Source of the DNA: Skeletonema tropicum
Lineage: Eukaryota > Bacillariophyta > Thalassiosirophyceae > Thalassiosirales > Thalassiosiraceae
NCBI GenBank assembly: GCA_037178625.1
Contig: CM074143.1
Coordinates: 2,084,980 to 2,148,979 of the forward strand
Length of the DNA stretch: 64,000 nt
Direction of reading: 5' to 3'
Positions within the stretch are counted from its first letter, which is position 1; every line of letters begins with the position of its first letter. The translations under genes were made by a program, and so were the position numbers. Shown here piece after piece: positions 909 to 59,219 of this stretch. The notes below the pieces were generated by a model. It was not told the origin of the DNA. It did no database searches and was given only the letters and a program-made list of their open reading frames with translations.

Positions 909-1194
909 TCGTTACAATGAAAGATAATGCAGCATGTCACTCTTGCGACGAGTTTTCAGGAATTGTTTTTACTATTGGATAAGAATATTTGAACGTGACC
1001 TGACGTGCAGTTGCACACACATTTGCTCCTACCAGATAGTAGAGTGCTTTTGAAAGTTCTCTCTCTGATTGCCCTTACCCTTAGCCACCAACACCAACAC
1101 TCTTAACTACTCCAACACTCACATTTGCTCCTACAGATAAGAGTGCATTTGAAAATTCTCCTCCTGATTGCCCCCAGCCGCCAACACTCTTAAC

Positions 1195-15946: not shown

Positions 15947-16581
15947 CTACTCCTCATCAAAGAAATCATACTCCTCATCCTCATCATCGTCATCGTCATC
16001 GCCGACGAAGCCAAGGTCTTTGACGACAACGCGTTTTGCTACGCATCTGCGGCTGCGCCTTTTCTGATTCTTCCAGCGATTGATTTTTTTCCCATTCTTG
16101 CGCTTACTCGAGTTGCTCCAGCTTTTGCTCCAGCTAGTAACCCATTTGCATCTACGGGCCCTGAGGCAACGCTTCTTTCCGCGGCCCCTGCATTGAACGG
16201 CTAGGAAAATTGGGTCATCCTCGGACTCGAACTCCTCGGACGGAGCGGTAATTCCCTCACCGTCATATTCAAATTCAAATCCACTAACAGGAAACTCGTC
16301 GGACGGAGCAGTAATTCCCTCACCGTCATTTTCAAATTCAAATCCACTAACAGGATGCTATGATGCATATTATACAAGTGAGAGTGAAGTGAGAGGCGTC
16401 AGTGATTTGAACTTGAATCAGTAGAAAGGCTGCAAGGCAAGGCAAGGCGAAACACATGAACTGACTTATCAAACGAACGGAACAAATAACAATGCAAACT
16501 TACAGCCACAGCGGCAGAGACAGCTCCTGGAGCGGTTGAGAGAAGAGCTAAGGCGGCGGAGATAATAAGATGAAGCTTCAT
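15947..16581 (-). CDS. Secreted acidic/cationic Cys protein, array copy 13
   Basis: Exon 1 is 16504-16581, the intron 16358-16503 and exon 2 15947-16357. This is the last complete gene of the array. Its upstream region breaks off at about 16930, some 350 bp from the start codon, but still includes the full minisatellite. Confidence 0.73.
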
Positions 16582-17001
16582 GATTTTTGAGATATCGTTT
16601 AATCTGTTGCTGTTGATAAAATTATGGCAGGATCAAGATGCCAACCCCTCATGAAATGGTTCACGCTGGTGTTCCAGAAACAGTTCACACTTGTGTCGGT
16701 TCACACTTGTGTCGGTTCACACTTGTGTCGGTTCACACTTGTGTTTTTCTCATCGTTCCCCTCTGTAGGAGGCAAAGGCGTGTTGTTCATTTCCCTGTCC
16801 AAGCGTGGATGGAGCGTTGACCCGGCCTCGCAGGTACAGGTAAGTTCCTTCTTGCAGTTGCAGGCGGGACAAAGGTCTTTCGATTTCAAAGGAAGATACA
16901 GATGCAACTGATAAAAGGTTGGACTTTCTGAAGATAACATTGAGACTTAGAGTCGACGATTTATTGAATGCCCACCATGCAGAAATCTACTAGTGGTGAA
17001 G

Positions 17002-41388: not shown

Positions 41389-43413
41389 ATGATACGAACC
41401 CTCCACAGCAGAGTCCGTCTTGGCGGCCATCATCGCCTCATAGCATCAGTATCATCTCCTCTTACTGCTGGTGCTATTAACGATAACACAAATGGGCATA
41501 ATAGCACCAACTTCAAACATCTCTCCCACCCATCACTTCTTCCACACCACCGAACATCACAGCCATCACGATCCTTCTGGTCCTCATCATCCTCCTCCTC
41601 ACAACAAGATGATGAGCTATCTAACAATATCAGCTCAAGCTCAAATACAACTACTTCTCCATCTTCTATCCTTCCCGCAGCTCCACTAACCCCATCCAAC
41701 ATTTCCGCCACATCACTTCTATCCAACTCCACCATCGAATCCTTACAATCCCTTCCCGAAATCAAATCGGCGTTGGACACTTTATATTCCAATGATACCA
41801 CTAACTCTACCTCGATTCAACAAGTGCACACCAATCTACAACGAGCAAGAGATATACTCCAATCTCTTCCAGAATTACATTCGGCTACCTATTTGATATC
41901 AATGGATCTGTATGCACTTCAAGGGAAGTATGATTTGGCATTGGAGAGTTTGGCTCGATACAATCATCATTCCTTACAACAACAACAGACGAAAGGGAAG
42001 AAGAACAAACAACAACAGCAACTTCAATTACAATTCCTCAAGGCGAAAATGTACCTCCTCTCCGGACAATTCACACATGCACTATCCGAATATGAAGATT
42101 TATTAGATATCATGGAACAACGTGTCCAACACCAAATGAAGAATCAACAAAGGAGTGAAGAATCACGGGGGGTATCAGTAATTGATGGTGCTGCGACGTT
42201 GACGGGGGTGGGATTGACCAAGTTGTTCCTGGTGTTGTATGAACAAGAAGTAGTAGTAGTTGATACTGACAATGATGCTTCTGGTACTACTAGTGCAACA
42301 ATTACAAATAATGAAATCATGGAAGCAATTGAAACATCCACCGAAATGCTCCTTGAATCACGTCGCGATGCACTCAACTCACCACAACACGCCGTACTCG
42401 CTCTCGATCTAGGCATCGCTGCGTCCATCTCACTTACCAACCTCGGCATCGTCCATTGCACACTACTAAATAACAAGGTCAAATCTATCGAATTGTGGAA
42501 ACAGGGATTGGACACGTTGGATAATTTGTTGGGTGATGCAATGAATATGGCAATGATTATTCCACGGCATAAGTTTTTGTGGATGGAGAGTGTGAGGGCT
42601 AGATTGCATTGTGATATTGCCTGTTTGTTATTGGGGTTGGAGGAAGAAGAACAACAGCAGCAGGATGGTGGTGGTGGGCCGAGGAGGAAGAAGAAACAGT
42701 TGGAGGAGGAGACGTTGAAGCATGCTAGTGAGGCGGCGAAGAAGGGTTTGGATATTTATGATGAGTTGATTAATGGTGCCAAGATATTGAGAGGTGAGAA
42801 TAATGGTGGTGGTAGTGACGATACTAAGCAAGATGGCAATCCTACTGATAATACTGATGAAGATAAGGAAGAGTGGGAACGAATTCTAAAGGAAGAAGTG
42901 AAAAAGAAGCAAGAATCATCAGATGACGAGGAGAAACCTCCGGAAGTTGCCCTGTCTCAACTATGGATCGACTATCATCGCTGCGAGAGTGCACGAGCAT
43001 TAGGTCTTGTGGCACACTGCTACGCTCAAGCAGGAGCAGCTGTCACATCCGAGGGTCTATTCCAATCAGCATTGGATGCTTCAGCATCGTACCCCATGGG
43101 ACAAAAACTACGCAGCAGTAGTAACAGTAATGTGGTTGTTGCGGATGATGGAAAAGGTATTGCACTATCATCACCAAATTTGGGATTGATTGCACGAGAT
43201 GTGAGAGTGTGGTATGCCATGCTGTGCAATAATTGGGAAAAGAGGAAGGGTGATGCGGATAGATTGCTTGCTGATGCACAAAGGATTGACGAGGAAATGA
43301 TATTTCAGGGATACTCTTCCCTTTCGGAAGAAGAAAAGAAGAAGAAGAAACGCATATCTGGAATGATTTCTTCTCTATGGCTGTTTAATCCAATTGACTT
43401 TGAAAGGAAGTAG
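41389..43413 (+). CDS. TPR-like protein with possible mitochondrial presequence
   Basis: The frame is open from 41260 but the ATG at 41389 gives MIRTLHSRVRLGGHHRL, a basic amphipathic start typical of mitochondrial import, so I prefer it (674 residues). A Ser/Thr/Asn-rich linker follows. Helical pairs resembling tetratricopeptide repeats appear at SATYLISMDLYALQGKYDLALESLARY, LQFLKAKMYLLSGQFTHALSEYEDLL and later ALDLGIAASISLTNLGIVHCTLLNNKVKSIELW (fragments, separated by Gln runs). An acidic insert (KQDGNPTDNTDEDKEEWE) and a final helical block end the protein. Specific function is unknown; a role in protein-complex assembly is generic inference. Confidence 0.75.
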   Translation: MIRTLHSRVRLGGHHRLIASVSSPLTAGAINDNTNGHNSTNFKHLSHPSLLPHHRTSQPSRSFWSSSSSSSQQDDELSNNISSSSNTTTSPSSILPAAPLTPSNISATSLLSNSTIESLQSLPEIKSALDTLYSNDTTNSTSIQQVHTNLQRARDILQSLPELHSATYLISMDLYALQGKYDLALESLARYNHHSLQQQQTKGKKNKQQQQLQLQFLKAKMYLLSGQFTHALSEYEDLLDIMEQRVQHQMKNQQRSEESRGVSVIDGAATLTGVGLTKLFLVLYEQEVVVVDTDNDASGTTSATITNNEIMEAIETSTEMLLESRRDALNSPQHAVLALDLGIAASISLTNLGIVHCTLLNNKVKSIELWKQGLDTLDNLLGDAMNMAMIIPRHKFLWMESVRARLHCDIACLLLGLEEEEQQQQDGGGGPRRKKKQLEEETLKHASEAAKKGLDIYDELINGAKILRGENNGGGSDDTKQDGNPTDNTDEDKEEWERILKEEVKKKQESSDDEEKPPEVALSQLWIDYHRCESARALGLVAHCYAQAGAAVTSEGLFQSALDASASYPMGQKLRSSSNSNVVVADDGKGIALSSPNLGLIARDVRVWYAMLCNNWEKRKGDADRLLADAQRIDEEMIFQGYSSLSEEEKKKKKRISGMISSLWLFNPIDFERK

Positions 43414-43693
43414 TATTATGAAGCATAAATATCTAATTCAGTGATTTGATTCAATCTACTTGCATTCATTACATTCTCGAGAGGTCCAACTCCAACTAAA
43501 GAACAGCAAGATCAAGAAGTACTTACAAGTGAAACACGACCGACAATCTTTTATGTATGGTACTTGTGAAGTTTCATTAACTTCTAAGCTGCAAGTTGAA
43601 CTAGAATGCAGCAGAAAGAAACTTCTTGAATACCGAACAGAAGCCTTTCATTCACTGAGAAAAACACAAACACAACACACGCACATAAAAACA

Positions 43694-45712
43694 ATGATGA
43701 GTTCCGAAATACTAGCCCCTCCACCCCCACCCATGAGCCCTCAACACGAGCAGGCCGAGGAAGACCTCTACGGTCCCGTCACCAAAGCCGCCAGCAAGGA
43801 AGCGGAACGTGACGAAAAACGAAAAGAAGAGGAGTTACAGCATGCGAAATCGCCTTTGTCCGTCAGAGAGAAAATGAATATTGAAACGGCTCAAGTGTTG
43901 GCTGCTGCTGCATCTCCTCAACAGCAGCAGCAGCAGCACAAGAAAAAGAGGCAGCCACAGAATTCACCTCATCCGTCGACACCGCCTCGGGGAAAGATGA
44001 GTGTGGCGGCACGTTCACGAGCGGCTGCCGATGCCAAAATTAACAACAAACACCAGAATAATGATAACACTCCGAAACAGAAAAACCCACGTCCAACCGC
44101 CCTTCCATCCAGCGGAAATCGCGGCATTGCACGGGGGAAATACACCGCTGCCGAAGCAAAGCGACTAGCCGATGCATGGGGTAGGGATGACACGTCAGAG
44201 GAGGATGAGGGATATTTCGGCTACGAAGATGACGATGGCTCCTCCTATTACGATGATGACGAGGGTTACGAAGACCCGCCGTATTATAGCAATGATAACC
44301 CCACTGAGGAAGAAATGTTTCATTATCAGCATCATCGGGTGAGTGCCTATGCGAATAGATATGGGAGAGGGCATGGTCGGTCGCCCAACCGAGGTCATTT
44401 GGACGGTAGCCACAACAATACTAACAGGCACCATCATACCAACAGCAACAACAAGAATCAAGGTGGTGGAATATTTTCCATAGCATCCAACTGGCTCCAA
44501 AACCAACGTGAAAAACTGCACAGACTAGAATTAGAACGGCAGGTGGAAGAACAACGGCGAAAATTGGTCGAGGAGGGTCGCAAACAACGTGAGTTGGAGG
44601 CAGAAAAACGACGTGATCGGGGATATGCCGTCTCACCTCCTGGGTCTCCCACCAAACATCAATCGGCAGTTGCCTCGAGTGCCATTGCAGGGGATGAGGT
44701 TGCGACATCGTCTTTGGTTTATATGAATGGAAGTTGTTGTCCGAGTCAAGAAGAGGAATCAGAAGAGCCGGAAAAAAGTCCCAGTAAAAGCAATTCACTC
44801 CTTCTCTGTGGCTTTGGTGGAAACTACGCACAAGCCTTAAATGATGATGCGTCTGATTATTCCGGCGTGGCTAGGATTGATTCCGCTGGGAATATTGTGG
44901 AAATGATGCCCAGTCGCGACCTAGATGATTCAGACGATGAGGAAGGGTACGAGGAAGGAGACTACATGACCGTACGAACACCAAAGATTACAATGACGGG
45001 GAAAGGAATGTCAGTCGATGTGGAAATTCCCGAAGACCACCTATCACTGTCAGATGGTAGTACAGATCCAACACATGTGGATATCAAAATTGTTCCGGAA
45101 CCGCGCAGGGATGAGAACTCGGTTGCCAACCCTTTCATATTGCTGCCGCCCCAAATGAAGGCACTATTGGAATCGGGTGCATTACCCCAATCACTCAACT
45201 ATTGCAAATGGAAAAGACTGTACAGTCTCTCACGTGATGGAGACTCTTTTGAAACCTTCTTACGGATGGTAGAAGGCCACAACCGAACAGTACTTGTGGT
45301 AAAATCCACAGCGGGGCGATTGTTTGGTGGATATGCGGATACGCGATGGGAAGCACGGCACAAGAATAGACAAGCAGATGGTTTTTATGGGAGTGCTCAA
45401 GCTTGTTTGTTTCGGTTCCCTCGCAGTGGAGAAGCAATGACTTCCGGTGCATCAACGTCGGAGGATGATAATGAGGTTGTGATTTACAGATGGTCTGGAG
45501 CCAACCGGTATATTCAACTATGTGATGCTTACAAACGAGCTGTGGCGTTTGGTGGAGGTGGTGATGATGGAGACTTTGGATTGTGCATTGAGGATGACTT
45601 TCGGAGGGGTACGACTGGTCATTGCTCTACATTTGAAAATGACCCTCTATGTGAGGAAGGCTATTTTGATGTTGTAGATTTGGAAGTTTGGGGTTTCACA
45701 TTGGACTTTTGA
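43694..45712 (+). CDS. TLDc-domain protein (first of two)
   Basis: The open frame starts at 43460, but the 5' part looks like UTR; the ATG at 43694 (MMSSEILAPPPPPMSP) gives 672 residues. The N-terminal three-quarters are low-complexity: poly-Pro, poly-Gln, acidic Asp/Tyr-rich and Asn/His-rich segments and a coiled coil near residue 280 (RLELERQVEEQRRKLVEEGR). Residues about 498-672 form a TLDc domain: WKRLYSLSRDGDSFETFL, TVLVVKSTAGRLFGGYAD, WSGANRYIQLCD, AFGGGGDDGDFGLCIEDDF, STFENDPLCEEGYFDVVDLEVWGF. TLDc proteins are associated with oxidative-stress protection and V-ATPase regulation in other eukaryotes. No TBC or LysM partner domain is present. Confidence 0.88.
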   Translation: MMSSEILAPPPPPMSPQHEQAEEDLYGPVTKAASKEAERDEKRKEEELQHAKSPLSVREKMNIETAQVLAAAASPQQQQQQHKKKRQPQNSPHPSTPPRGKMSVAARSRAAADAKINNKHQNNDNTPKQKNPRPTALPSSGNRGIARGKYTAAEAKRLADAWGRDDTSEEDEGYFGYEDDDGSSYYDDDEGYEDPPYYSNDNPTEEEMFHYQHHRVSAYANRYGRGHGRSPNRGHLDGSHNNTNRHHHTNSNNKNQGGGIFSIASNWLQNQREKLHRLELERQVEEQRRKLVEEGRKQRELEAEKRRDRGYAVSPPGSPTKHQSAVASSAIAGDEVATSSLVYMNGSCCPSQEEESEEPEKSPSKSNSLLLCGFGGNYAQALNDDASDYSGVARIDSAGNIVEMMPSRDLDDSDDEEGYEEGDYMTVRTPKITMTGKGMSVDVEIPEDHLSLSDGSTDPTHVDIKIVPEPRRDENSVANPFILLPPQMKALLESGALPQSLNYCKWKRLYSLSRDGDSFETFLRMVEGHNRTVLVVKSTAGRLFGGYADTRWEARHKNRQADGFYGSAQACLFRFPRSGEAMTSGASTSEDDNEVVIYRWSGANRYIQLCDAYKRAVAFGGGGDDGDFGLCIEDDFRRGTTGHCSTFENDPLCEEGYFDVVDLEVWGFTLDF

Positions 45713-46518
45713 GATCTAGAGGCTGAGCTTGCCTTGTCTACTTAGCTACTTGTGTCGGATTATATGGATTTAACTAATCTGATTAAGTAAAAGTATGGCA
45801 AACAAATAATAAGTATGCTACTGCACTTTTCAGATACTTATAGGTACACACAAGTACCACATCATGTTTTTAAGTTCGAGCTTTTCTAGAGTGAGAGAGA
45901 AATCTACAAATCCTTCCACACTCGTTAATAGGAGTAGTTCGCATCAACAACATAAAAGATGCTCTATATCCGGTTGCTCTTGGCTTGGGGGGACGGACAG
46001 CTCACTTATTCGAGTGACGAACGCACTGCAACCATGAGTTGGCTTGGAGGGAGTTTATTTGGAAAGAAGTTCGTAGGGAACAATTTTGAAACGAGTTCTG
46101 AGTAGAGAGAAATGTGGGTAAGAATCGAGACTGGCAGTCTTACTTACTTGCAGGCAAAGTGAGAAAGTAATTCCTGCACGAAGATGTAAATGGCCCCTGA
46201 AGGAGATGAGAGAAGGTACATACACAATAATACAAATTCCGACGTCGGCTTTGTAAAAGACACCCATCTTAAAGAGTTCGCGAACGGTGTCTTCAGATTT
46301 CTTCTTGGTTTTGATTCAAATCTCACACTCTCCATTTGAATGTCTGACACCGGCGCCAGACGTTTCAAACGGCATCCGTTGAAAAGACCGGTGTCAAATA
46401 CATATTAAGCACTTAATTTAGTCATATTTAAGCTTACTCTATTAACTACTCGGAGTAGCACAATTTATCGTCCTGCAGACACAAATAAGCTAATAGAGCT
46501 TAATTCGCCCACATAAGA
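45713..46518. other. Intergenic region with possible small spliced gene
   Basis: A minus-strand frame near 46200-46330 reads plausibly (KKSEDTVRELFKMGVFYKADVG). A strong donor GTAAGTAAG lies downstream at about 46150 and an acceptor CTACTCAG about 50 bp further on, suggesting a small spliced gene. I could not assemble a complete convincing product. The plus strand has a 23-codon frame at about 46034. A hairpin lies at 46345-46396. Confidence 0.25.
46345..46396. other. 52-bp interrupted palindrome
   Basis: TGACACCGG (46345-46353) pairs with CCGGTGTCA (46388-46396), and inside it TTTCAAACGG pairs with CCGTTGAAA around a CAT loop with one bulged base. It overlaps the 5' end of the small minus-strand frame described for this region, so it could be a regulatory hairpin. 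Confidence 0.6.
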
Positions 46519-48666
46519 ATGAATCATGAATTTCAAACAATGACGAGAAGGAAAGAAGGTCGAAGAAACCAGAAACACATCTCATGCCAAGACAAAGGCA
46601 AGGTCTCCAACCATGTGCTTATTTTGTGTACACATCATAGGAACACGGATTACAACATAGAGAGCCGTCAGAATAGTGAGCCAACGATGAGCAGCACCCG
46701 TTCCACCGCTGCAAAGGACGAGCTAACTGCGTCGGAAACTCTGATTGCCATCAGCATGTCACCCAACAAGAAGGACGCAAAGAACGAGGCGGTCTACACA
46801 AATCCGAACCCTGTAAATGATGAAATTCTTCCTCCCTCCAAAAGCTCTGCTACCACCCGCACATCTTCCCGATCACTCTTCTCTCCTCATATCAAGGGTG
46901 CATCTGCATCATCATCTATTGTCACGCCCAAATCGACCATCAAGATACCACGTGTCACCCGCAACCGTTCCGCCGCTGCTAGGGCTGTCTCCGGCGCCGC
47001 TGCCTCCCGCATAGCCGCTGTTGAAAATTCTACCACCAAGCAGCAGGTCAAGTTAGAAAAAGAGGGTGATGTGGAGTCCACCAACGTCAATGGAGGGGCG
47101 GAGGCTTTGGAAACACCCATTTTCCGCCGCACCGCCGATAACTCCTCTACGGCCATCAAACAGGTTGCGGCTTCAAAGCCGGCGCCGATACGTGATATTA
47201 CTTCCCCTAGCACTGTGGTGCTCCCCCTCCTGACTATACGCAGTGCCTACAATAACACCGCATATGATAGAGTACAGCAGCAACAGGGTGTAGCAGCCGC
47301 TCCATTCCTTTCTGCTTCATCCACCATTGCTACTACCACCGCTACCAATAATAACACGCACATCCACAATGGTATCGCCAGCTACGTGGAACAGGCAGCA
47401 GAAGACGACATTAAAACCAAACTACTCATGGAAATTAATGATCTGAAGCAACTCCTAAGTGGTCGCAAGGCACAGGTGAACTCTCTCACTGCAGCTAATA
47501 CCAATCTTGAGGAAAAACTTCATCGACTGCAAGGGATGGAACGTCAGAATAAGAGACAGAGGCATTCCTCTAGATCCCCTACGCCTACTCGATTTGTTGG
47601 TGAGGAGCAGCAGGTGAAGGTGACCAAGAGTCTACAGTTGGAGGTATTGAAGGAGGAGGCCGTGGCAAGAGGTATTATGGACGCTAATTCTGTCTCATCC
47701 ATGACTAGGGAGGCCCTTCTAGAAACACTTGTTATTGGGACCACGTGTATCACCAAGTCTTCTGCATGGGCCGAGGTACTCAGTCTACGAGCACAAATTA
47801 AGAGTGAAAAGGTTGTCGTTCGTCTACAAGAAGAAGATGAGCAGCAAAGGCTATTGGAGATGGAACAGAAACGTGAACAGAAGCGTGAAAGGCGAGCTCA
47901 GCAGCAGCAGCAGATGAAAAATACGGCATTCACTCGTGATGGTGTGGCAGCACTCGAAACGGCAACCAAGACTGTGTGCAAGTCTGAATTACAAAAGAAT
48001 TCTGTTGCAGGAGCTGCTGCTGCTGTTGCTAGTGTTGTTCCAGCGAAACGTACCAGAGGCCGTCCCAGAAAAGCAAGCAAGAAGCCATCATTTGGAAAGC
48101 AAGGAAGTGCCTTTGGCTCTGTCAATAAACCTCCTTCCAGCAGTTCTGAGGTTACGTATCCAAGTCTTTATTCAGAGGAGGATGAGCAGAATACTCATCC
48201 ATCTCATGCCATCATCCGTCGTGACATCTTGGAGGCGTTTGTCACTATCGCTCCCAAGGAAGACGAGGACCTCAGCGGTGAAGGCAAGAAGAAGACTGCA
48301 CGTCGAAGACGCTATGCAGGAAAGGTTGGCTTCCGCTGTCGTTACTGCAAGGATAAACACGTGGAAGAACAGGGTGACCTCTCTGTCATTTACCCCGAGT
48401 CTATCAAGGGCCTCTACCGTGCCAACATTCGCTTCCAAAGCAAGCACATCCAAGCCTGCAAGTACATTCCTCAAGAACTCCGAGACCAGTTGGATTACCT
48501 CAAGACTTGCAAGGAGGGAATGAACCGTGGGAACAAGAACTATTGGACTGAGAGTGCGCTCCGTAAAGGATTCCGTGACTGGCAGACTGTCGACGGAGAA
48601 AAGAAGGGCATTATTTATTGTCCTGAACTCAATGAAGAGTTGAAAGAATCGTCAGGTACCCATTGA
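46519..48666 (+). CDS. AT-hook nuclear protein with C-terminal Cys/His domain
   Basis: The first ATG is at 46519 (715 residues); the ATG at 46687 (MSSTRSTAAKDEL, 659 residues) is an equally good start because the first 56 residues look like UTR. The N-terminal half is Ser/Thr/Ala-rich. A coiled coil follows (EINDLKQLLSGRKAQVNSL), then a SAP-like helix pair (LKEEAVARGIMDANSVSSMTREALLE). An AT-hook core is plain in RTRGRPRKASKK. The C-terminal 130 residues carry GFRCRYCKDKH, a conserved-looking YPESIKGLYRANIRFQ stretch, KHIQACKYIP and NYWTESALRKG. The C-x2-C plus H-x4-C spacing suggests zinc binding. It probably binds DNA or chromatin. I do not recognise a named family. Confidence 0.75.
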   Translation: MNHEFQTMTRRKEGRRNQKHISCQDKGKVSNHVLILCTHHRNTDYNIESRQNSEPTMSSTRSTAAKDELTASETLIAISMSPNKKDAKNEAVYTNPNPVNDEILPPSKSSATTRTSSRSLFSPHIKGASASSSIVTPKSTIKIPRVTRNRSAAARAVSGAAASRIAAVENSTTKQQVKLEKEGDVESTNVNGGAEALETPIFRRTADNSSTAIKQVAASKPAPIRDITSPSTVVLPLLTIRSAYNNTAYDRVQQQQGVAAAPFLSASSTIATTTATNNNTHIHNGIASYVEQAAEDDIKTKLLMEINDLKQLLSGRKAQVNSLTAANTNLEEKLHRLQGMERQNKRQRHSSRSPTPTRFVGEEQQVKVTKSLQLEVLKEEAVARGIMDANSVSSMTREALLETLVIGTTCITKSSAWAEVLSLRAQIKSEKVVVRLQEEDEQQRLLEMEQKREQKRERRAQQQQQMKNTAFTRDGVAALETATKTVCKSELQKNSVAGAAAAVASVVPAKRTRGRPRKASKKPSFGKQGSAFGSVNKPPSSSSEVTYPSLYSEEDEQNTHPSHAIIRRDILEAFVTIAPKEDEDLSGEGKKKTARRRRYAGKVGFRCRYCKDKHVEEQGDLSVIYPESIKGLYRANIRFQSKHIQACKYIPQELRDQLDYLKTCKEGMNRGNKNYWTESALRKGFRDWQTVDGEKKGIIYCPELNEELKESSGTH

Positions 48667-49156
48667 GAGAATTGGTGGGTTTTCTGAACATCGTGCATAC
48701 ACATTATATGGGATATTTTTTTTGTCCTGCCAATGAAGGATTTACAGCATCTTTAGACTTTTGTTGCATCATCATCCTGTTTGGTTATATAGATTACATT
48801 ATTTGGCCATATGTTATGGCATCCATAAGCTAAAAATAAAGAGAATAGTGCTACAAGATAATGAGTGCTAGAGGTACTGAATCTGAATATAATCCTGGCA
48901 TGGGATGGTGTTGAGGTTGTATTGATAGTCACTTGGCTTGGCATAGTCGTCAGAGATATATGTATAAACCGAAAATCATTGGTGCTGTCTGATACACGAA
49001 AAGAACAATGAACAATGCCAATGTAACACGAGGAAGGAAGAGATCACAATTCACAATCGTCAGCAGCAAAAACATAAAAGCAATAAGTACCTTCGACGCA
49101 TAGTTCACCATGATACCTTCCGCTGCAATGCAAAAGAATAATGAGATGGGGCGTAT
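48667..49156. other. Intergenic region before the tRNA pair
   Basis: The 3' UTR of the AT-hook gene and AT-rich sequence occupy this stretch. Short minus-strand frames at 48753-48944 and 48950-49174 have no recognisable features. I see no gene here. Confidence 0.5.
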
Positions 49157-49163
49157 AAAAAAA
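49157..49163 (-). terminator. RNA polymerase III T7 terminator
   Basis: Seven T residues on the minus strand follow the end of the tRNA-Cys 5' half by 5 bases. No comparable T-run separates tRNA-Ala from tRNA-Cys, so it probably ends a joint transcript. Confidence 0.8.
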
Positions 49164-49168
49164 TGATT

Positions 49169-49246
49169 CTGCAATCGAACGCTCTACCACTGAGCTATAA
49201 GTGCGACAGTAGCACCCAACGTGAGTCGAACACGTGACCATTCGAA
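49169..49246 (-). tRNA. trnC-GCA: Circularly permuted tRNA-Cys(GCA): 3' half precedes 5' half
   Basis: Read on the minus strand, 49246-49211 gives bases 38-73: T, stem TCGAA, variable TGGTC, T-arm ACGTG-TTCGACT-CACGT, acceptor TGGGTGC, discriminator T. Six bases (49210-49205, ACTGTC) follow. Then 49204-49169 gives bases 1-37: acceptor GCACTTA, TA, D-arm GCTC-AGTGGTA-GAGC, G, stem TTCGA, loop TTGCAG. All four stems pair when the halves are reordered (acceptor with two G-U pairs). The anticodon is GCA, and U73 is the tRNA-Cys identity base. At the split, TTGC pairs with GCAA, flanked by 3-base bulges AGA and TCT, a bulge-helix-bulge. Cutting each bulge after its second base yields exactly a 7-base anticodon loop. 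The RNA should be ligated, circularised and opened at the ACTGTC linker. No CCA is encoded. Confidence 0.88.
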
Positions 49247-49254
49247 GATTGCGA

Positions 49255-49326
49255 TGGAGATGCGGGGAGTCGAACCCCGGACTTTCCGCATGCAAAGCGG
49301 ACGCGCTACCACTGTGCCACATCCCC
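49255..49326 (-). tRNA. trnA-UGC: tRNA-Ala(UGC)
   Basis: The 72-base minus-strand sequence folds as a normal cloverleaf. The acceptor is GGGGATG/CATCTCC with the G3-U70 pair that defines alanine tRNAs. The anticodon arm is TCCGC-TTTGCAT-GCGGA (anticodon TGC). The T-arm is CGGGG-TTCGACT-CCCCG and the discriminator is A. It has no intron and no encoded CCA. Its 3' end is 8 bases from the first base of the permuted tRNA-Cys, with no T-run between, so both are probably made from one Pol III transcript. Confidence 0.95.
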
Positions 49327-51073
49327 AATTGTGAAGAAAAGGACAGTCCCTGACAATTAGAAGTTCAATCAATGCCTATTTCATGAGCCACCAGATTTGA
49401 CACATACCTACTTACTTAATGCTTGGATAAGTAAGAGCTCCTTCGGTCACCAATTTTTTTTCCAAATATCCAAAACTCACCGCGCCGCCGCCATGGCACC
49501 TCCTACACAGTACACTAAGTAGTGGGGTGCATAACATGAAGTAATGACAATAACACAACGCCATAACGTAATATCTAGACCAGTTTTCAACGCTGATTCC
49601 GATAATGCTATCGGCGGTTCGATATTTTTTGAGACGACAGAAGTATCGGTCGTTACATACATAAGCAGCATCGATTTTGCCGATTTTGGGCACATCATAC
49701 ATTGACACTGTTGATGGGGTACATATGCAGTAGTCAGCCCGTGGGTCATCAGAGAAGGGTGAACTTAATCCTGGGGGAGTACTTTTCGGCCCAGTTTGCG
49801 CCTGTGGTGCAAAGCGTTGGTTGTCGCGTCTGGTGTTTGCCAGGGGGAGTATATTATTATGCGGTACATAACACTGTAAGGATTGGAGGTACATCATGTT
49901 TGCGCTGCATGTGGGATATTAGCGTTGGCATTATCAATGGATAAGGAACGAGTATCGACTCAGATATCATCACAGCAGAGTTTCAAGTGGCCATGGCGGA
50001 TTCATTGCATCAAGTGAAATCTCTCCATTGCAGGCGTTACGGACATTTGGGAAATTGTTGCAGCGGCATAGAAGAGAATAGTGAAGGTATTAGTAGTGGA
50101 GTGGTGACTTCTTCTTCTTCTTCTTCGACAGGAAGTGGACCAACGATTCGGAGACAACGACAATTGGTCAAGTTGGCTGAGTATAGATATGGCAGCTTAA
50201 GGCGAACGTGTTGTTGATCTGATTGAACCGATGGATATGCTTGTAAATTCGCAGTGGAGATGTGTGAAACAAAACGTGCCTACGACAGGGATGGTAGCGA
50301 GATCATCATTCTTACTTCCGAATAGTATGGTACTAGTTATTGCGATCTATCAAGCGTCTACTTCTGCTACTGCTACCACCTCTGCTGCCTTGGAGTCAGT
50401 ACAGGCATCACCAGTCCTATAGGTGATTTTCATATATATGGAACTAGCCTTTCCTCGGTTCTACTGTGTTTGCATCTCGAATGGTATCAAGAGAGAAGGG
50501 AATCAATTTTGATGCAATGGGCTTTGAGCCCGATGCAGAATTACCAGCGTGCCTTCTTTCCTGTGATAATATGATGTATTAGATACGTTTATGAATCTAT
50601 TTCAAAGAATGCAACGTGGAGTATACTCTGGTAGAATTCAACGTTTCAACACTCTCTTTGGAGAGCTTTCGTAGTTTTAGTATGCTGTCAAATGTCTATC
50701 ACTCACACTGCATGCGTCGACTCCTCGAAACTTCGGAACTTTCCAACAATGTAGCGATTATTCATCTCCAATATAAAATATAAAGTATAGTAGTTTCTCA
50801 AGGAAATTGTGTCACGATGGTGGAGTGTAACATTATGAAGTACCGTATCTACGTAAACATTTTCAAATCGTGGGGTCTTCTCGTTTTTTCTGACGACGAT
50901 GAGATGAAACGAGCTGCAACGAAACTACGATACATAATATACCGCAATGACAGGTTTGGAGCAGCTAACCATACCATCACTGCCATTAGTAATCAACAGC
51001 TAACACCCTACCTATCACCTGCTACCTCCTCTCAATAATAAATGTCAACAATAATTGCGTCGGCGTTGTCACG
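49327..51073. other. Region without a convincing gene
   Basis: Several frames of 60-160 codons lie here on both strands (for example 49412-49897 minus and 49987-50217 plus), without recognisable domains or consistent coding character. A short ORF beginning at 50817 lies in the presumed USP upstream region. A decayed element or unannotated spliced gene is possible. Confidence 0.4.
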
Positions 51074-54000
51074 ATGAGTAAAGAGCTTCAATTCCACTTC
51101 GACAGCATCACCACTTCGGGCGGCACCTCCGTTCCCTCCTCGGTCGTTGCATTCGACAAACGGACACTCTACATCGGTGCCAATTGGACCATCAAGCTCA
51201 AAGAGTTGAACAAGGTCAATGTCATCCAGCAAGATGAAGATGATGGCGGGTACACCAATGACAGCAGGCGGTACAATCATCGATTCAATAACGGACCGCA
51301 GCAACGACGTCAGTATGGTGCATCTCATCATCATCCACCCACCGCCACTGTCACATTGCAGGGCAAGGGAGGACGATCCTCCTTCACTTGCATCACGAAC
51401 AATGCTACCAATGACGAATTCCACAATTTCATAGAGGCATTGAAACAAGCGCATCGCAAGGTCAAGTTGAAACATGACGAGAAGGATCCCTATGCAGCTG
51501 ACAACAACCATCAAAAAACGAGTAGGGGTGGTGGTGCCATCCATTATCGGTCCAACAAGAGGCCATTAATTACACCCACCGTTTCTCGATCCAATCACCA
51601 ACATCAACCAACAATGAAACAACAATCACGTGCCTCACTTCACATGACACCAACAAAAATGAAACAGTCGACTGGGGCCTTTCTCTCTCGCAGTGGTAAT
51701 AATAATAATAATAATAATAGTGGTGGACACAACAATCACACTACACGAGGAAATGTCCTCCAAAACAACAATAATAATAAATCCTCCCCACCACTTCGTT
51801 TACCACCCAAATCTCCAAGGAATGCTACTCCCACAAAATTACGTCAGCAGCATGATGATGATTCATCCGAAGAAGATGAAGTAAAATATGATGAGTTCGA
51901 ATTCGATGATGGAGAGGGTAGTAGTAAAACAAAACTTTCATCTTCACGTGTATTGTTTCAAGATAATGTTGTTGTCAAAAAACGGGATAAAAAACGTGTG
52001 AAAATGAGCAAGTTGCAGAAGAAAATTGAGGAGAGAATTTTGGGTGATCGTAGTGATGATGAGGAGGAGGATGTGGAGATGAATAATCAGATGCAGCAAG
52101 AAGAAGAAGAAGAAGAAATTTTGGAAGAGGAAGAGAGGAGTGTGGTGAACAAGAAGAAGAAGAAGAGATTGAGAAAGGTAAAAGTTCAAATGAATGAGGA
52201 GAGTGACGGTTCCGATGTAGAATTTGATATTGGTCCTTCTCCTTCTTCTACGACGGGTGATGTCAGGAAAAAGTTACGTCTGGAAGATGATGATGAAGAC
52301 GACGACGACAACAACGAGGAGGAGGAAGGAGAGAATGACAGTCCATCTCCAGCAAGAGAAGAAAAGGTCAAGGAAAATCATGCAAGTGGCAAGACAATTA
52401 CAGATGAAGATACGAGTAGGGAGACCTCACCAGTGACCACGGAGGAGGATGTTGTCGCAGGTGACGCTGAGAATGATGACGACGACGACGATGACGACTT
52501 GGAGAATGGGGAAATTTCTTCCACCCCGGAAGAAAAATCATCTGCCAAGAAGGGATCCGGAACCATCCTCAATTTCTTTCAACCACTATCCGCTGCTTCC
52601 TCCTCCAAAACAAAAAGTAGTAGTGCTGCATCGTCGACGCCCGTTCTTCCACCAACGACCCCCTCCAAGAAGAAGAAGAAACACGGCTTCAACAACTCCC
52701 ACCCATCCACCCCTTCACCCCCTTCTTCTTCGCAACAGTCGTATACGTGGCATAGCTCCTCGTCGACACGGGTGGAAACGACACCACTCCCTATGCAGAG
52801 ACAAGCTAATAGGTGGGACAATAGTGTTGCCACTGCCACTCCCAAGAAGAAGGCTGCCCTATTTAGTCCCTCCATTGATTCTGGATCATATTATAATCAT
52901 AAGAAAACACCTGTAGGAGGGTACGGATCGGATGATTATGAAGAAGAAGAAGTGGATGACATTTACGGAGATGACGACGACGATGAAAATACGGCTCCTC
53001 CCTCTCCACCAATAAGGACAACCTACCACCAACAACAACGTCGAGTGAAACAAATCTACGGACGACAGGGTGGTCTAGGACGACCTCGACTTGGTCAGGC
53101 GGCTCGGAATCCATACAAGAACGATCATTTCCGTCGGGTCGGCGGCAGTAGGAGACTACTCCCCTCCGAGGCGGATTCGGCATTGGGATTTCCGGGACGG
53201 AGGAATTTAGGTGCACGAACGATGAATCGTGATATGTCGAGGAGGAGGTTGGGAAATCAAAAGTTGTTTTCTTCCGTGGCCGTGATTGAAGATCAGAATG
53301 ATATTGATGATGATGATGAGGAGGAACAAGATGACAAGCCCAAAATTCCAGGAATTCAAAATCTTGGTAATACATGTTATCTCAGTGCATCGTTGCAAAC
53401 ATTGTACAGCATCCCTCAATTTCTTCACAAGCTCTACCAATCCTATGAGGAATTGCATATCATGAAGGATTTGCCACTAACAACGTCATTGCTCGAGGTA
53501 GCCGTGACCATTGGGGCATTGAAAGAGGTGGATGTTCCCCTGATCTCCCCCGACGTGGCACGTAGCACATTGCTCACTTCCAAGGCGGCAAATCCATCGG
53601 CATTGAAGAAGCAGATGGATGTGCTGACGGAGAAGTTTGCTGGGTATGAGCAACGGGATGCTCATGAGTTCCTTGGTGACTTGGTGGACTTTTTGCATGA
53701 AGAGTTGATCAATGATCCTTTTTCAGATGAGAAGGATGATGAATCCAAAAAGTCGGAAGAGTTCAATAGTGAGGATAGTGATGCTACTGTTGACGAAGAG
53801 AAACCTTCTACCGTGGTAACTACCGATCTCCCCACGGATGAATATTTTCATCTCAAAGTGCGGGTATGTCTCAAATGCAAATCTTGTGGCTATTCTCGAT
53901 CCAAAGAAGAGTTGTATCGTCATTTGTCTATTGATGTGGGAGAAGATGACCAAGGTGAATCTTGGGGAGTGGAACGGAGTTTAGAGCATTTCTTCCAAGC

Positions 54001-54533
54001 GGAAGATCGTGAGGTCAATTGTGAGAAGTGTCAGGATGGCACTTTTGCTACTCAAACGATGGAGATTATTTCTCGGTAAGTTTTGTGTGCGATTTTCACG
54101 TTGTTGTCAATACCCAGCATTTCACTCAACTCCTTTCCCTTTGCTGTATATTGACCTCTCTAGACCGAAAGCAATTCTCCTTCATTTCAAAAGATTCATT
54201 GTCACCCAAAGAGATAATGGAGAGATGGTCCTCCGAAAGAACAAAGCCAAAATACCTCTGAAGGATTCCCTTTCCATTTCTTCCTTCTTCAGTTCCGAGG
54301 AAGAAAAACCAAATGGTCTCTATCACCTCTGCGGTGTTGTCCATCATGTTGGAAATACTGCCTTTTCCGGTCACTATACAACATGTGCCAAGAGAAAACT
54401 TGAAGAAGAGTCTGTCGAAGAGCAGTGGGTGTTCTTCGATGACACAGTAGGCCAAAGGCGAACTATCAACTACGTTACTGGTAACGAAACGAACCAGAAA
54501 AATTGTTACATGGCGTTATACGAGTTGAAGTGA
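51074..54533 (+). CDS. Ubiquitin-specific protease (USP/UBP family, C19)
   Basis: Exon 1 is 51074-54075, an 88-bp GT-AG intron is 54076-54163, and exon 2 is 54164-54533 (1123 residues). Splicing joins ISR to PKAILLHFKRF in frame. The catalytic Cys box is GNTCYLSASLQTL (Cys768). The EQRDAHEFL box follows, then a zinc ribbon (CLKCKSCG ... CEKC) and the His box (GNTAFSGHY, His about 1071) with WVFFDD completing the active site. It would cleave ubiquitin from substrates. The first 100 residues (FHFDSITTSGG...LYIGANWTIKL...FIEALKQAH) resemble the PH-like N-terminal domain of USP37-type enzymes. A 650-residue disordered, strongly acidic linker contains GTILNFFQPL, similar to a PCNA-interacting motif. 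Nuclear action is plausible but inferred. Confidence 0.92.
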
Positions 54534-54625
54534 TCGTGAGCTGAGGGAATAATTTGATTTTTGTGCTGTAAATCGCATATATACTAGATGTCAACACATA
54601 TATTTAGAACGTTTATTACTCCAAT

Positions 54626-57600
54626 CTAAGCTGTTAGAGTCTCACGCTTCATTAACACAAGTACAAGATCCCCAAGTAGGATCACAAATGAGGGCACAAA
54701 GAGTAAGTTTTGCACCTGCCTCAGATCGATGAAGCCGACAGTTGTAATGAAGGCATCCCCCAACGCACGACCAAGTGTGCCGACAATTGTGGCCAGCAGC
54801 CCAGAGTTCAAGGTCCCGGCAGCCAGTGCTGTCGGAATTACCTTCGATAAGACCGAACCCACAACACCATCAAATGCTTGGATCGAGCAAAACACAAGCA
54901 AATATCCAGCGTAATACCTGTTAGGCCCAACAGCAAAGATATCTCCTTCATTGTACGTGTCTGTATCTGTCGACATAAAGTCTGTAGGGTCGACCAAAAG
55001 TGCCATTCCAAGTGTAGCACACGTGATCAACCAAACCATTAGAACCCCATCCTCACGATACTGAGAAATCCACCCTACAAAGATTGAAATAGGAATAGTT
55101 AGGCAACCCACTACAGTCCCCAAAGCACCTACTTGTTTCAATTCCCAGCCATATCTATTCTTTGTCACCATTGATGCACTACTAATCATGTTTTCCACAG
55201 TAAACTGCTTCGAAAAGATGAGGAACATGCAAAGATGAACAGCTGGGGTCATGTGTCTGCGCACGAATTTAATCTGGGACCAAAATGATTCATTTTCATT
55301 TTTGGCTTTGGAATGTTCGCTATCAGAACCAAACTCAACTCTATTTTCAACATCCGACACATTAGATTGGTCAGAATCACCTCGCTCATAATTTGTAAAA
55401 GTAGAAGTACGCCTCTCCAAGGGGCTCATTTCATATTCTGACGGGTAAGTTTGAATTGTCGGAATAGACTGGATATTCGAATTACTCAACTCGATCTGCC
55501 TCTCCTTCTCAATCTCCACTTGCTCGATCAGTCCGCTCCTCACTGGTTCACGGAACATGCAAATCGTTACAGTAAGATAAATCATCCACAGCGCACACAT
55601 CAGGTACCCAGGGCCAGTCATCGCGTTGAAGTAGAGCGTACCATACAGAGGTAAGTTCAATTCAAACTCGAAATTACTCAGCACCACTGCAATAGCCGGT
55701 CCCACTGCCGCACCTAGTGCAGTAGCCGTGCCAAAGGCAGCATTGGCAGCAGTCCTGTAAACAAGTGGCGTAGTGTCGGCAATGTAACGTCTATTCATAC
55801 TCCTCGGGCCTCCCAACCCGGTAAGGAACCTCCCACACAAGGCCATGACAATGCTTCCTTGACGGTAGGCGCTACTGTACAATATATTCCCCGCAATCAG
55901 AAGCACACCACTCGCTAGCAAAGGAGATCGGTACGATTTATTACTCCAGACGGAAAAGATGACGGCAGATATCATTGCAGCCCAAGGCATTGCTCCAATG
56001 ATCAGGCCTGACATGGCATCTTTCGCACCCAAGGCATTGGCGTACTGTACACTGGATGGTCCAACAATGTAGTAATTCATCATGTACAAGAAACAAGATA
56101 GAATATTCAAAACCAGGGAAAATTTCGTGTTGGTCGATGACGATGCTGATTTCGGTGTTGATTGAGGCTCCACACCCCGGAACCCTCCAAACCAAGAGTC
56201 GTTGATACCCTCAGGTTCAGGAATGATCCCGTACAGATTGGCCTTGCGTGCATCCCTCCACTGGGCGACAACCAACAAACTGCTCTTAAGGCTCTTCCCC
56301 CTCATGATGAGATACTCCGGCATCAAACTCAAGTTAGTCAACGCACTCCCCAACAAGAAATACTCCCGCAAAGTAGTGATAAAGTTATCACGAACTCCGG
56401 AGGCTCGACCAGTATACGTCTTTTCAATGGAACGCTGTGTTTTCGATTGGACACACTTGAAAATGTACACTTGGTACTCAATATCTTCCCCAATGTCGGG
56501 ATTAGATCTCAAACTTGCATAATCGGGAGGCTGCAATGGACGGGTTGGTAGGACTGCGTCCGCGCCAGTAATTTCTGACTTGGGTGTCTCGAGGTACGAG
56601 TCAGACGAGGCAGCTGGTCGCAAGGGAGGAGTCTGGGACCGTTCCATTGAGGCTGATGGTGGTGCCACTGCAGTCTCAATACCTAATTCTCCTCCTCCAT
56701 CTTCTCCTCCTTCCTTATCATGAATCGACGAAAACCCCTCACCAAAATCCATCGCCGAAACATTCATAGCAGGTTGCCTCCACCTAGCCCGTTGACGTTT
56801 CTTAATCTCTTCCGCAGCATCCACAAGTTTATGAAATTGATCCGCAAATCCTTTAAATCTCAACCTCCTCCTCCTCCTACGATTTCCCCTCCCCCCTCCA
56901 CCTCGACTTCCCAAAAATCCCTCCCCCTCCTCCTCATTCTCATACTTTTCCAAATTCTGCTTATACTCCCCAATATACGCCAAGGTCAACCGTTTCAATT
57001 TCGAATGAAAGGTCAAATCCCGAAAATCACTACTCCGTCCATTCTTCCTCAACCGACGTGTCTTTTGATACCACGAGGACATGGGAGACCCCCCCAAACT
57101 TCGTACAAAGGCATCATATCGAATGAGGATTTGACGTACAACGATAATGTTGGTGGTAACAAAGGCGTGTAGTTCGAGTATTTCGGACCCTAGGTCGTTG
57201 AAGGAGAGGGTGTCAATGATACGGTTGGAGGATGGTTCGATTAGGTCGTCATCATCATCTTGATCATTATTGTTGTTGTTGCCGAGTAACTCATTGAATT
57301 CTGGATTGCTCGTACTACCACCACCCATCATCATTGATGTTACTCCCCCACCTCCACCACCACCACCATCATCATCATCCCCACTAGCAGCAGCAGTAAA
57401 CCTCCGGGGTAAAACCTCCCCATCCTCCCTATTCGGAGCCAACTCTGCCAATCGATTCCGATAAAACATCACCGCACGTTCCACCTCGGAATCCAATACG
57501 GCACTAAGTTCGACACGTTCCATAAATGATAACTGTTTCATCACCTCTGCTTCAGTGAGCATAATGTTCACTTCTCCTCCTCCTGGTAAATTCAACTCGT

Positions 57601-58402
57601 TCGTATTCGAATTGTTGAAATTAGTAGTATTGGAGTTGTTGTTATTGTTATTGTTGCCAATATGATCCATCATTTCCACATACGACCCCCCAGTAGTCAC
57701 ATTATAACCATCACTTGCAAATGAATTTTCTTCATCCCTCATAAATTCTTCTTCGGTATAACAACTTCCACATCGTAATGATCTTGTGAATATATTACTC
57801 CGTTTGTTGTTGTAGGATGCATTGTTGTTGGAAGTAGTGTTGGTGTTGTAGCCGCAGCGGGGCGGAGTGGTGCCGAGAGCACGTTGGGAGGCGTATTCCA
57901 TGACGTGGGTGTTGAGATTGGGTGCTTTTTTGGAGTAGTCGTGGATTAGTTTGGTTAGTTCGTGTTGGCTTATCCGATTGTTATTGTTGTTATTGGTGGT
58001 ATTGTTGTTGTGACTGTCATTGTTGATATTATTGTCACGAATGGCAGTACGAACGGCCAATCGACGACGTGAGAAAAAGGCAAGACACTCTTGGAGTAAG
58101 TGATAGCTGGCGTGGTGGGATGACCAATCTTGATTGAGCAATTCATCATTGTGGTTGTTAGCAGCAGAAGAAGAGCCCTGCAGGTCGTTGCTTGGTTGTG
58201 GTGTTGTTGTCGTTTCTTCACTCGACGCCTCGTTGATATTCGGGAGGCCTCCGCCACCACCACCGCTACGTTCTTTCGTACTACTATATGTTGGATGATG
58301 ATGATCCGAGGGAGGAGGACGTCGAATGGCACGTTCCAAGCAGGCGGAGAAGGATCCTCCACCTGCGATGACGTCTTCGGTCCTCGGTGGAATGGCAGGC
58401 AT
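54626..58402 (-). CDS. SPX-MFS transporter, probable vacuolar phosphate transporter (PHT5/VPT-like)
   Basis: The uninterrupted frame gives 1258 residues. Pieces of an SPX domain are spread over residues about 100-480, separated by Asn, Gly and Asp runs: LLQECLAFFSRRRLAV, LDSEVERAVMFYRNRLAEL and FVTTNIIVVRQILIRYDAF, the last being the conserved SPX helix. From about residue 770 there is a major-facilitator core with about 12 spans, including FSLVLNILSCFLYMMNYYIVGPSS and ALCGRFLTGLGGPRSMNRRYIAD. SPX binds inositol pyrophosphates to report phosphate status; SPX-MFS proteins load phosphate into vacuoles. The SPX part is much expanded by low-complexity inserts. The gene converges on the USP gene with 92 bp between stop codons. 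Confidence 0.88.
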   Translation of the reverse strand: MPAIPPRTEDVIAGGGSFSACLERAIRRPPPSDHHHPTYSSTKERSGGGGGGLPNINEASSEETTTTPQPSNDLQGSSSAANNHNDELLNQDWSSHHASYHLLQECLAFFSRRRLAVRTAIRDNNINNDSHNNNTTNNNNNNRISQHELTKLIHDYSKKAPNLNTHVMEYASQRALGTTPPRCGYNTNTTSNNNASYNNKRSNIFTRSLRCGSCYTEEEFMRDEENSFASDGYNVTTGGSYVEMMDHIGNNNNNNNSNTTNFNNSNTNELNLPGGGEVNIMLTEAEVMKQLSFMERVELSAVLDSEVERAVMFYRNRLAELAPNREDGEVLPRRFTAAASGDDDDGGGGGGGGVTSMMMGGGSTSNPEFNELLGNNNNNDQDDDDDLIEPSSNRIIDTLSFNDLGSEILELHAFVTTNIIVVRQILIRYDAFVRSLGGSPMSSWYQKTRRLRKNGRSSDFRDLTFHSKLKRLTLAYIGEYKQNLEKYENEEEGEGFLGSRGGGGRGNRRRRRRLRFKGFADQFHKLVDAAEEIKKRQRARWRQPAMNVSAMDFGEGFSSIHDKEGGEDGGGELGIETAVAPPSASMERSQTPPLRPAASSDSYLETPKSEITGADAVLPTRPLQPPDYASLRSNPDIGEDIEYQVYIFKCVQSKTQRSIEKTYTGRASGVRDNFITTLREYFLLGSALTNLSLMPEYLIMRGKSLKSSLLVVAQWRDARKANLYGIIPEPEGINDSWFGGFRGVEPQSTPKSASSSTNTKFSLVLNILSCFLYMMNYYIVGPSSVQYANALGAKDAMSGLIIGAMPWAAMISAVIFSVWSNKSYRSPLLASGVLLIAGNILYSSAYRQGSIVMALCGRFLTGLGGPRSMNRRYIADTTPLVYRTAANAAFGTATALGAAVGPAIAVVLSNFEFELNLPLYGTLYFNAMTGPGYLMCALWMIYLTVTICMFREPVRSGLIEQVEIEKERQIELSNSNIQSIPTIQTYPSEYEMSPLERRTSTFTNYERGDSDQSNVSDVENRVEFGSDSEHSKAKNENESFWSQIKFVRRHMTPAVHLCMFLIFSKQFTVENMISSASMVTKNRYGWELKQVGALGTVVGCLTIPISIFVGWISQYREDGVLMVWLITCATLGMALLVDPTDFMSTDTDTYNEGDIFAVGPNRYYAGYLLVFCSIQAFDGVVGSVLSKVIPTALAAGTLNSGLLATIVGTLGRALGDAFITTVGFIDLRQVQNLLFVPSFVILLGDLVLVLMKRETLTA

Positions 58403-59219
58403 TGTAACAACACCGTTATGCTGCTCGAGATTTAGGCCTTAGCTGTACCTAACTCCACTGCCCTGAGCCAAACGAAAGAGACGATCACGAGTCTAATTCA
58501 TAGAAAGCAATTTCCCAACAAAGCTCAAGCTCAGCATGTTGCAGGCGTTAGATTTGGCTGCCCCTTACCATAATATATCACGCCATGAGCGAGAGATGCC
58601 AATGACAACGGCATGGGGCGGTACGGTACGTTGTTGGACGTTGGACGCGTTGCGCGTTAGCTTGGTTGCGTTGGGCGATGTTGGAAGTCCGTCGATGGAT
58701 CGCGCGGAGTCGCGGGTAGGTACTCAAAGAACTTCCCGAATAAAAGATAAAATGAATATTTTTCTCGTCTCCTCTTTCCCCCTCTCTCCTCTAGACTCCG
58801 ACTTTTAGGTTGAACTTCAAGTGCCTTCTCCATCCAAGACATAAAACTGCATGCATCATGCGCGCAACGCAAAACGGGAAAGAATAAAGATTCACTCACG
58901 ATCACACGATGGTTCACAATGACGGTTTAGCTTCTCGAAAAGTGACCATTTCCTATGACGAGATATCACAAAAATGACGAGAGACGTTCACAGTCAAATC
59001 ACACGGGTGTGAACCGTCGTGGGAACTTTCACTTGAAAAACGGGAAAGGTTCGCCGAGTAGTCCGCGCTGTCCCTCGCCTAAATTTTGAAGGCAGCCTTC
59101 ATCGTGACACCAAACTGCTGGCAGCATGCATGCACCATTACCAACCAATGCCATGGTACAATAAAATTTTTGACCGGCCTGGATAGCTCTCATAAATCTA
59201 TCTGCTCTGTACAACTACA
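58403..59219. promoter_or_regulatory. Divergent intergenic region between SPX-MFS and TLDc genes
   Basis: The two start codons face away from each other across 817 bp. An inverted repeat is visible: CACACGATGGTTCACA near 58907 and TGTGAACCGTCGTG near 59008, about 100 bp apart, a candidate transcription-factor site pair. No gene is evident; the frame at 58536-58808 has no recognised features. Confidence 0.4.

Follow-up and report, generated by a model that had tools for sequence, protein, structure and literature searches.

Five circularly permuted tRNA-Cys(GCA) genes in the diatom Skeletonema tropicum, probably its only cytosolic source of this tRNA

Structure of the permuted gene

The genome of the diatom Skeletonema tropicum carries five copies of a tRNA-Cys(GCA) gene whose halves lie in reversed order, and in our view it is highly probable that these are functional nuclear genes of type II (37/38 junction) that together probably form the diatom's only source of cytosolic tRNA-Cys. 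The copy described here lies on the minus strand at positions 49169-49246 of the window, i.e. the whole 64,000-nucleotide stretch of DNA analysed, in the order 3' half, six nucleotides, 5' half. On this strand the tRNA-Ala(TGC) is followed by eight bases (TCGCAATC), the Cys 3' half, ACTGTC, the 5' half, AATCA and seven T. As a sequence observation the permuted gene is confirmed, and the letters are as the original prediction described them, with two tRNA halves reversed and six bases apart. The features are listed below in the order of the minus strand.

49255..49326, minus strand: conventional tRNA-Ala(TGC), 8 nt upstream of the permuted gene (Rfam 64.3 bits; ARAGORN)
49249..49252, minus strand: GCAA, 5' strand of the central junction helix, partner TTGC at 49171-49174 (GCAAT the same in all five copies)
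49246..49248, minus strand: first 3-nt bulge, TCT, predicted cut after base 2 (TCT except in the C12 copy, which has TAT)
49211..49246, minus strand: 3' half, nt 38-73, with U73 and the B box/T arm (from the sequence; identical in all five genome copies)
49205..49210, minus strand: intervening ACTGTC, linking nt 73 and nt 1 (the length is 6 nt in every copy)
49169..49204, minus strand: 5' half, nt 1-37, with the A box/D arm (from the sequence; identical in all five copies)
49171..49174, minus strand: TTGC (nt 32-35), 3' strand of the central junction helix (helix in the minimum-energy folds of all five copies)
49170..49172, minus strand: anticodon GCA (from the sequence)
49168..49170, minus strand: second 3-base site, AGA, outer side open, predicted cut after base 2 (no outer helix)
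49157..49163, minus strand: run of seven T, likely RNA polymerase III terminator (from the sequence; T-runs of 4 to 8 after all five copies)

Put back in the conventional order, the halves give a 72-mer with a complete cloverleaf, as claimed earlier: a 7-bp acceptor stem (with two G-U pairs), a 4-bp D stem and 5-bp anticodon and T stems, with no non-standard pair in any of them, the anticodon GCA and U at position 73. U73 is a feature of tRNA-Cys. The arrangement is of type II, i.e. the 3' half is upstream, the spacer is short and the full cloverleaf appears on reordering.

Standard searches overlook this gene: in the window ARAGORN, and Rfam at gathering score, reported the neighbouring tRNA-Ala alone. 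We built a covariance model from 14 other tRNAs of the same genome (ARAGORN calls, none of them Cys), permuted in silico, and against this held-out model the window gene scores 69.4 bits (E 7e-22) over model positions 1-79 of 79. One further match in the window (22.8 bits, E 2e-5) overlaps the tRNA-Ala and has several pairs broken; it is the bits and the pairing that separate the two matches, as the E-value is rough. The same model was run on 70 of 119 loci (216 kb), a part of the genome that consists mostly of tRNA surroundings or pattern matches. Here the five Cys copies score 69.4-70.9 bits and the remaining 78 of the 83 matches, mostly on halves of ordinary tRNAs, reach at most 31.3 bits, i.e. 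no permuted tRNA other than the five Cys copies rises above 31.3 bits in these loci. In addition, a permuted-tRNA descriptor, applied to both strands, has a single match in the window, compared with none in 60 resampled windows drawn according to the same dinucleotide frequencies, and this result and the score of the held-out model bear out the earlier view that such an arrangement is hard to get by chance.

Conservation in the five-copy family

A genome search with the window stretch gave five copies of the permuted tRNA-Cys, at the following positions.

C17a (the window copy), C17:2134119
C17b, C17:1302859
C13a and C13b (two units), C13:1066139-1066395
C12 copy, C12:2448615

The 36-nt halves are letter-identical (72/72) in all five copies. 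The spacers are 6 nt each (ACTGTC, ACTGTC, ATCATT, ATACCT, AATATG), and they differ among the four distinct units that enter the column comparison, C17a and C17b having the same spacer. Among these four units the variable columns number 0/72 in the exons, 5/6 in the spacer and 28/30 downstream. With columns treated as independent, Fisher's test gives p 3e-7 for spacer versus exons and p 1e-24 for spacer plus downstream versus exons. The GCAAT just before the 3' half is invariant in all five copies, whereas 22 of the 24 columns before it vary; at these 24 columns C17 and C13a differ at only two, and both have the tRNA-Ala there. Runs of four to eight T follow all five copies and none lies inside a 6-nt spacer, so that the runs after the 5' half are likely to be, as judged from the letters, Pol III terminators. 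The identical halves could be due in part to gene conversion. It is nevertheless simpler to assume selection acting on both the halves and the junction helix, because conversion would have to copy both halves and yet skip the six bases in the middle.

The five copies do not represent five independent events. C17a and C17b lie inside an inverted duplication of more than 13 kb on the same contig (C17:1296000-1309500 versus window 42778-56110) with 99.1-99.5% (about 99.5%) identity; the extent is a lower bound as the duplication ends beyond the compared stretch. The two may be alleles, one of them perhaps misplaced, or a real duplicate. By contrast, for the surroundings at C13 (10.5 kb) and C12 (8 kb) similarity to the window is confined to the tRNA genes and the few bases next to them. 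We also note that an acceptor-stem pair of the tRNA-Ala(TGC) is compensated, being A-T in C17 and C-G in C13, next to Cys halves that are identical.

Search for an ordinary tRNA-Cys gene

In the original prediction an ordinary tRNA-Cys(GCA) gene elsewhere, combined with a lack of reads that join the two halves, was considered a sign that the permuted gene is a relic; DNA and pattern searches of the genome found no such gene. A search with the reordered 72-mer, in which four candidate regions were scored, gave 10 matches in the genome; these correspond to the ten halves, one match extending by a few bases into the leader. An intronless pattern from the anticodon to the T loop, TGCAR...GTTCRANYC, gave 36 matches (76 in the reversed control), all 36 of which were scanned; three are tRNA-Leu(TAG) and none is a tRNA-Cys. 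Patterns for the Cys 5' half, which are blind to introns and allow up to two mismatches, gave 22, 29 and 2 matches with D loops of 7, 8 and 9 nt, respectively, and GCA occurs in a tRNA setting at the five permuted copies only.

The 7-nt pattern recovers all five permuted copies, which serves as a positive control. Its 17 other matches (the reversed control has 3 in all) consist of four that were checked in sequence, one of them a tRNA-Arg(CCT), two tRNA-Arg(TCG) loci (L003/L004) and 11 that were judged by their matched letters. With the 8-nt loop there are 29 matches (versus 2 in the reversed control), of which 23 belong to Tyr, Trp, Phe or Asn by their matched letters, and the surroundings of the other six were empty on examination, as were both matches of the 9-nt pattern (reversed control 1). 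The absence of an ordinary gene is thus one of pattern and DNA searches, which would miss an unassembled gene or one that combines an unusual D arm with an intron; the tRNA catalogue, in which 63 of 2517 first-look candidates were scored, has no part in this argument.

For cysteine only one anticodon is available, since ACA is described as absent everywhere (PMC8007984). Because of this, and because no ordinary gene was found, the permuted genes should be the working ones, and the nucleus probably has no other source of this essential tRNA. The genome paper of S. tropicum states that tRNAs were predicted with tRNAscan-SE and gives 96% complete BUSCOs (PMC11032307). Our results suggest that a tRNAscan-type annotation of this species, and perhaps of related diatoms too, would be without a tRNA-Cys.

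Several other elements turned up in these searches and in a search for further permuted tRNAs. In the latter, a pattern for the D arm alone, with a 7-nt loop, has 75 matches that are Cys, Arg, Ala, Thr or repeats that do not look like tRNA (by matched letters, some checked in sequence), and a further D-arm pattern has 7 matches versus 13 in the reversed control. A tRNA-Tyr that was suspected of being permuted was ruled out: the tRNA-Tyr-like genes (L115, L116, L119) are in the ordinary order and have short anticodon-loop introns that differ between copies. A dispersed repeat with the A-box-like core TAGCGCAGCGGTAGGGC has 16 exact copies among the D-arm pattern matches, and the two copies examined (L110, L114) contain no tRNA. 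Finally, L120 (C5:2397080-2397260) has two adjacent units that resemble tRNA 5' halves (GCTCAGACG.ATAGAGCA) and no T arm.

Alternative readings

There is one place in the genome where the order of the halves can be read in two ways. At C13 two permuted units follow each other 86 nt apart, so that the inner 5' half, the 86 nt and the following 3' half can also be read as an ordinary intron-containing tRNA-Cys, and ARAGORN with introns allowed does call a tRNA-Cys(gca) there (c[693,850] in L048). The ordinary order, 5' half-intron-3' half, was not found at C12, C17a and C17b, and the overlapping reading is possible at C13 only. One could suppose that the working tRNA-Cys is C13 read in this manner, with an 86-nt intron, and that the permuted copies are by-products of duplication; the GCAA/TTGC junction would suit an ordinary intron equally well. 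We think that this is unlikely. The 86 nt contain two T4 runs, one T5 run and, 34 nt before the second unit, TATATAAA, which would fit a promoter of that unit, and the flanks after C13a and C13b have TAGGAAG..TCATCCTTTTT in common, which suggests that a permuted unit was duplicated in tandem. For these reasons we favour two permuted genes at C13, with a tandem duplication of an already permuted unit as their probable origin, although C13 could also be one locus where both readings are used. In addition, the outer C13 halves and all halves at C12 and C17, for which no partner in the ordinary order was found, are 100% conserved together with the junction and the T-run.

The remaining two explanations have still less in their favour. 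Tandem duplication followed by loss of the outer halves is a proposed origin of permuted genes (PMC3978253) and would leave exactly the permuted order, so the copies might be viewed as non-functional remains of an ancient tandem array whose tRNA-Cys genes had introns. However, the decay expected of relics is absent, since none of the 72 exon columns varies while spacer and downstream flank have diverged, and the searches gave no other gene for this essential tRNA; we consider the relic explanation very improbable. An assembly artefact (inversion or misjoin), also raised in the original prediction, seems the least credible of all. The near-identical inverted copies C17a and C17b on one scaffold make some assembly redundancy possible, but the permuted order is present in five copies and four contexts, it recurs at C12 and C13 with different spacers, the surroundings of C17, C13 and C12 are unrelated, and a misjoin would not preserve the junction and the T-run each time. 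The reading that we prefer is thus that of functional permuted genes.

The splice junction and its processing

The original prediction spoke of an exact bulge-helix-bulge, which is correct in one part and too strict in another. The GCAA/TTGC helix and the TCT and AGA bulges are there, they place the expected cuts at 37/38 and, as predicted, leave a 7-base anticodon loop. What all five copies lack is an outer helix on the far side of the second bulge. At the first outer position the bases are C-A, C-A, T-T and A-C, with a lone A-T in C12, and at the second position every copy has a mismatch. The 37/38 junction thus has a motif of the bulge-helix-bulge type (the helix and a 3-nt bulge), while the strict, closed form (hBHBh') is approached by at most one A-T outer pair, in C12. 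As no copy has an outer helix, the junction is of the relaxed hBH form rather than a closed bulge-helix-bulge. The C12 copy also has TAT and AGT where the others show TCT and AGA. An hBH junction is given for the type II genes of the B. natans nucleomorph and of green algae, and the strict hBHBh' form is not demanded of type II genes (PMC3978253).

Free folding of the window precursor shows a moderate excess of stability only (z -2.1; 6 of 200 shuffles are equally stable). The minimum-energy fold (-28.4 kcal/mol versus -22.6 for the permuted cloverleaf) keeps the GCAA/UUGC helix, the anticodon stem and the T arm and loses the acceptor and the D arm. The junction helix, the anticodon stem and the T arm are found in the free folds of all five copies, whereas the acceptor helix across the spacer is kept in C13a, C13b and C12 and lost in the C17 copies. 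We give these folds little weight either way because the mature form of the tRNA-Cys also misfolds, at the D arm, in the same program.

A domain search found the tRNA-splicing endonuclease domain (PF01974) at two places and the RtcB ligase domain (PF01139) at one, while the domain of the yeast-type tRNA ligase (PF09511) had no match here and none in the control genomes either, so that no conclusion can be drawn from this negative. An ordinary tRNA-Tyr with an anticodon-loop intron is another splicing substrate in the genome.

A possible pathway can be outlined. RNA polymerase III would read the tRNA-Ala and the permuted Cys gene as one precursor up to the T-run, and the tRNA-Ala would be trimmed by tRNase Z and RNase P. 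The Cys part would fold with GCAA paired to UUGC, the tRNA-splicing endonuclease would cut after nt 37 and before nt 38, as the conserved junction suggests, and RtcB or another ligase would join 37 to 38, giving a circle. The six bases that link nt 73 to nt 1 would then be excised by RNase P and tRNase Z, followed by addition of CCA, by analogy with other algae, for which such a pathway of circle excision and end trimming has been described (PMC3978253).

Expression of the permuted genes

In a permuted gene the B box precedes the A box, an order thought to be unsuitable for TFIIIC (PMC3978253). Three of the copies (C17a, C17b and C13a) are separated from a preceding tRNA-Ala(TGC) by 8 nt that contain no T-run; beside the window copy, the tRNA-Ala neighbours are at C17:1302783 and C13:1066400. 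In the other two copies a possible TATA-like or AT-rich element was seen in the 50 bp upstream, where the first three have the tRNA-Ala instead: C13b has the TATA-like TATATAAA at -34, a sequence that fits a candidate promoter of the second C13 unit, and C12 has TTTATATTA at -50. Since close tRNA pairs are not rare in this genome, we think it likely that Ala and Cys share a transcript and a promoter. The data also lead us to lean, with some reserve, towards a broader scheme in which all cytosolic tRNA-Cys would be made by way of RNA circles, three copies being transcribed as an Ala-Cys dicistronic precursor and two from a TATA of their own.

Eight D arms of the Ala(TGC) kind are present in the genome, five of them away from Cys. 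In the three Cys-free examples that were examined (L053, C19:1816667; L060, C9:2742105; L064, C19:2016842) the tRNA-Ala(TGC) is followed, after a few bases, by what appears to be the 5' part of a tRNA-Leu(CAA). Other close pairs on the same strand are Ile(AAT)-Ser(GCT), with a 9-nt gap, at three loci (L019, L020, L021) and Ile-Tyr (L051/L115).

Comparison with known permuted tRNA genes

A published list has 34 entries for permuted tRNA genes, found in six algae and one archaeon (PMC3978253). The closest counterparts are the type II tRNA-Cys(GCA) genes of the prasinophytes Ostreococcus lucimarinus, O. tauri and Micromonas pusilla (Maruyama 2010, per PMC3978253 Table 1), which likewise concern the GCA isoacceptor, have the type II 37/38 junction and lack an extra intron (PMC3978253). 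Their spacers are longer, 26, 38 and 12 bp, respectively, versus 6 in S. tropicum. The permuted Cys gene of O. lucimarinus is followed downstream by an additional 5' half, noted as a possible intermediate (PMC3978253), which is somewhat like the C13 array. Prasinophytes are green algae and not stramenopiles, and in the accessible part of that source neither a five-copy family nor a tRNA directly upstream is described for them (PMC3978253).

In the red alga Cyanidioschyzon merolae the general features are alike, as the 3' half comes first and a T-stretch follows, and the upstream TATA-like element of that alga (PMC3978253) resembles the stretches at C13b and C12; the circle intermediate was detected there (Soma 2007, per PMC3978253). 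That alga differs in having 11 permuted genes with several junction positions (PMC3978253), as opposed to Cys only, at 37/38, in the loci searched in S. tropicum. Permuted tRNA-Ser genes are known from the nucleomorphs of Bigelowiella natans and Amorphochlora amoebiformis (PMC3978253, PMC4494063), and that of B. natans is of type II with a 5-bp spacer, near the 6 in S. tropicum (PMC3978253). The nucleomorph cases nonetheless concern serine and a relict green-algal nucleus, while the S. tropicum copy is on a chromosome-size contig of the host nucleus. In the green alga Auxenochlorella permuted genes came to light after the tRNAscan-SE set had proved incomplete (PMC12636532).

The earlier remark that permuted tRNA genes are known from other groups, with no known case in a diatom-like genome, agrees with what we found: no permuted tRNA in a diatom is reported in the literature searched, which lies mostly outside subscription journals and includes the accessible parts of PMC12636532, PMC8450103, PMC4090602 and PMC13353863. 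Literature searches for permuted tRNA with Nannochloropsis gave nothing, and those with dicistronic gave what appear to be studies of RNase P only. Sequence relatives were also sought farther afield: two patterns had no match in viral contigs, the exact 5' half had none in prokaryote genome contigs, and phages gave two records only, both matching the tRNA-Ala.

We are dealing with a known kind of gene in a new lineage, in an unusual genomic setting and with an apparently exclusive role. If the broader scheme of RNA circles is true, the permuted tRNA-Cys(GCA) would have arisen separately, or been transferred, in a stramenopile and in prasinophytes. In the literature covered here, permuted genes come from an archaeon, a red alga, green algae and nucleomorphs of green origin. 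A stramenopile case would add a major marine lineage to this range, and it would concern an essential tRNA that is seemingly without an ordinary backup. With their diverged spacers, the five copies would serve as a natural experiment to show which positions are important. The neighbouring tRNA-Ala suggests a concrete and testable way in which transcription could occur in a gene whose A and B boxes are inverted.

Other features of the window

Positions 1-16930 of the window are occupied by a tandem array of roughly 1.34-kb units that are about 98-99.5% identical to one another; this array has no Rfam match at gathering score. A protein is encoded at 54626-58438, and for its residues 640-1260 the best named relative is from Skeletonema marinoi, with 80% identity, another NCBI entry having 94%.
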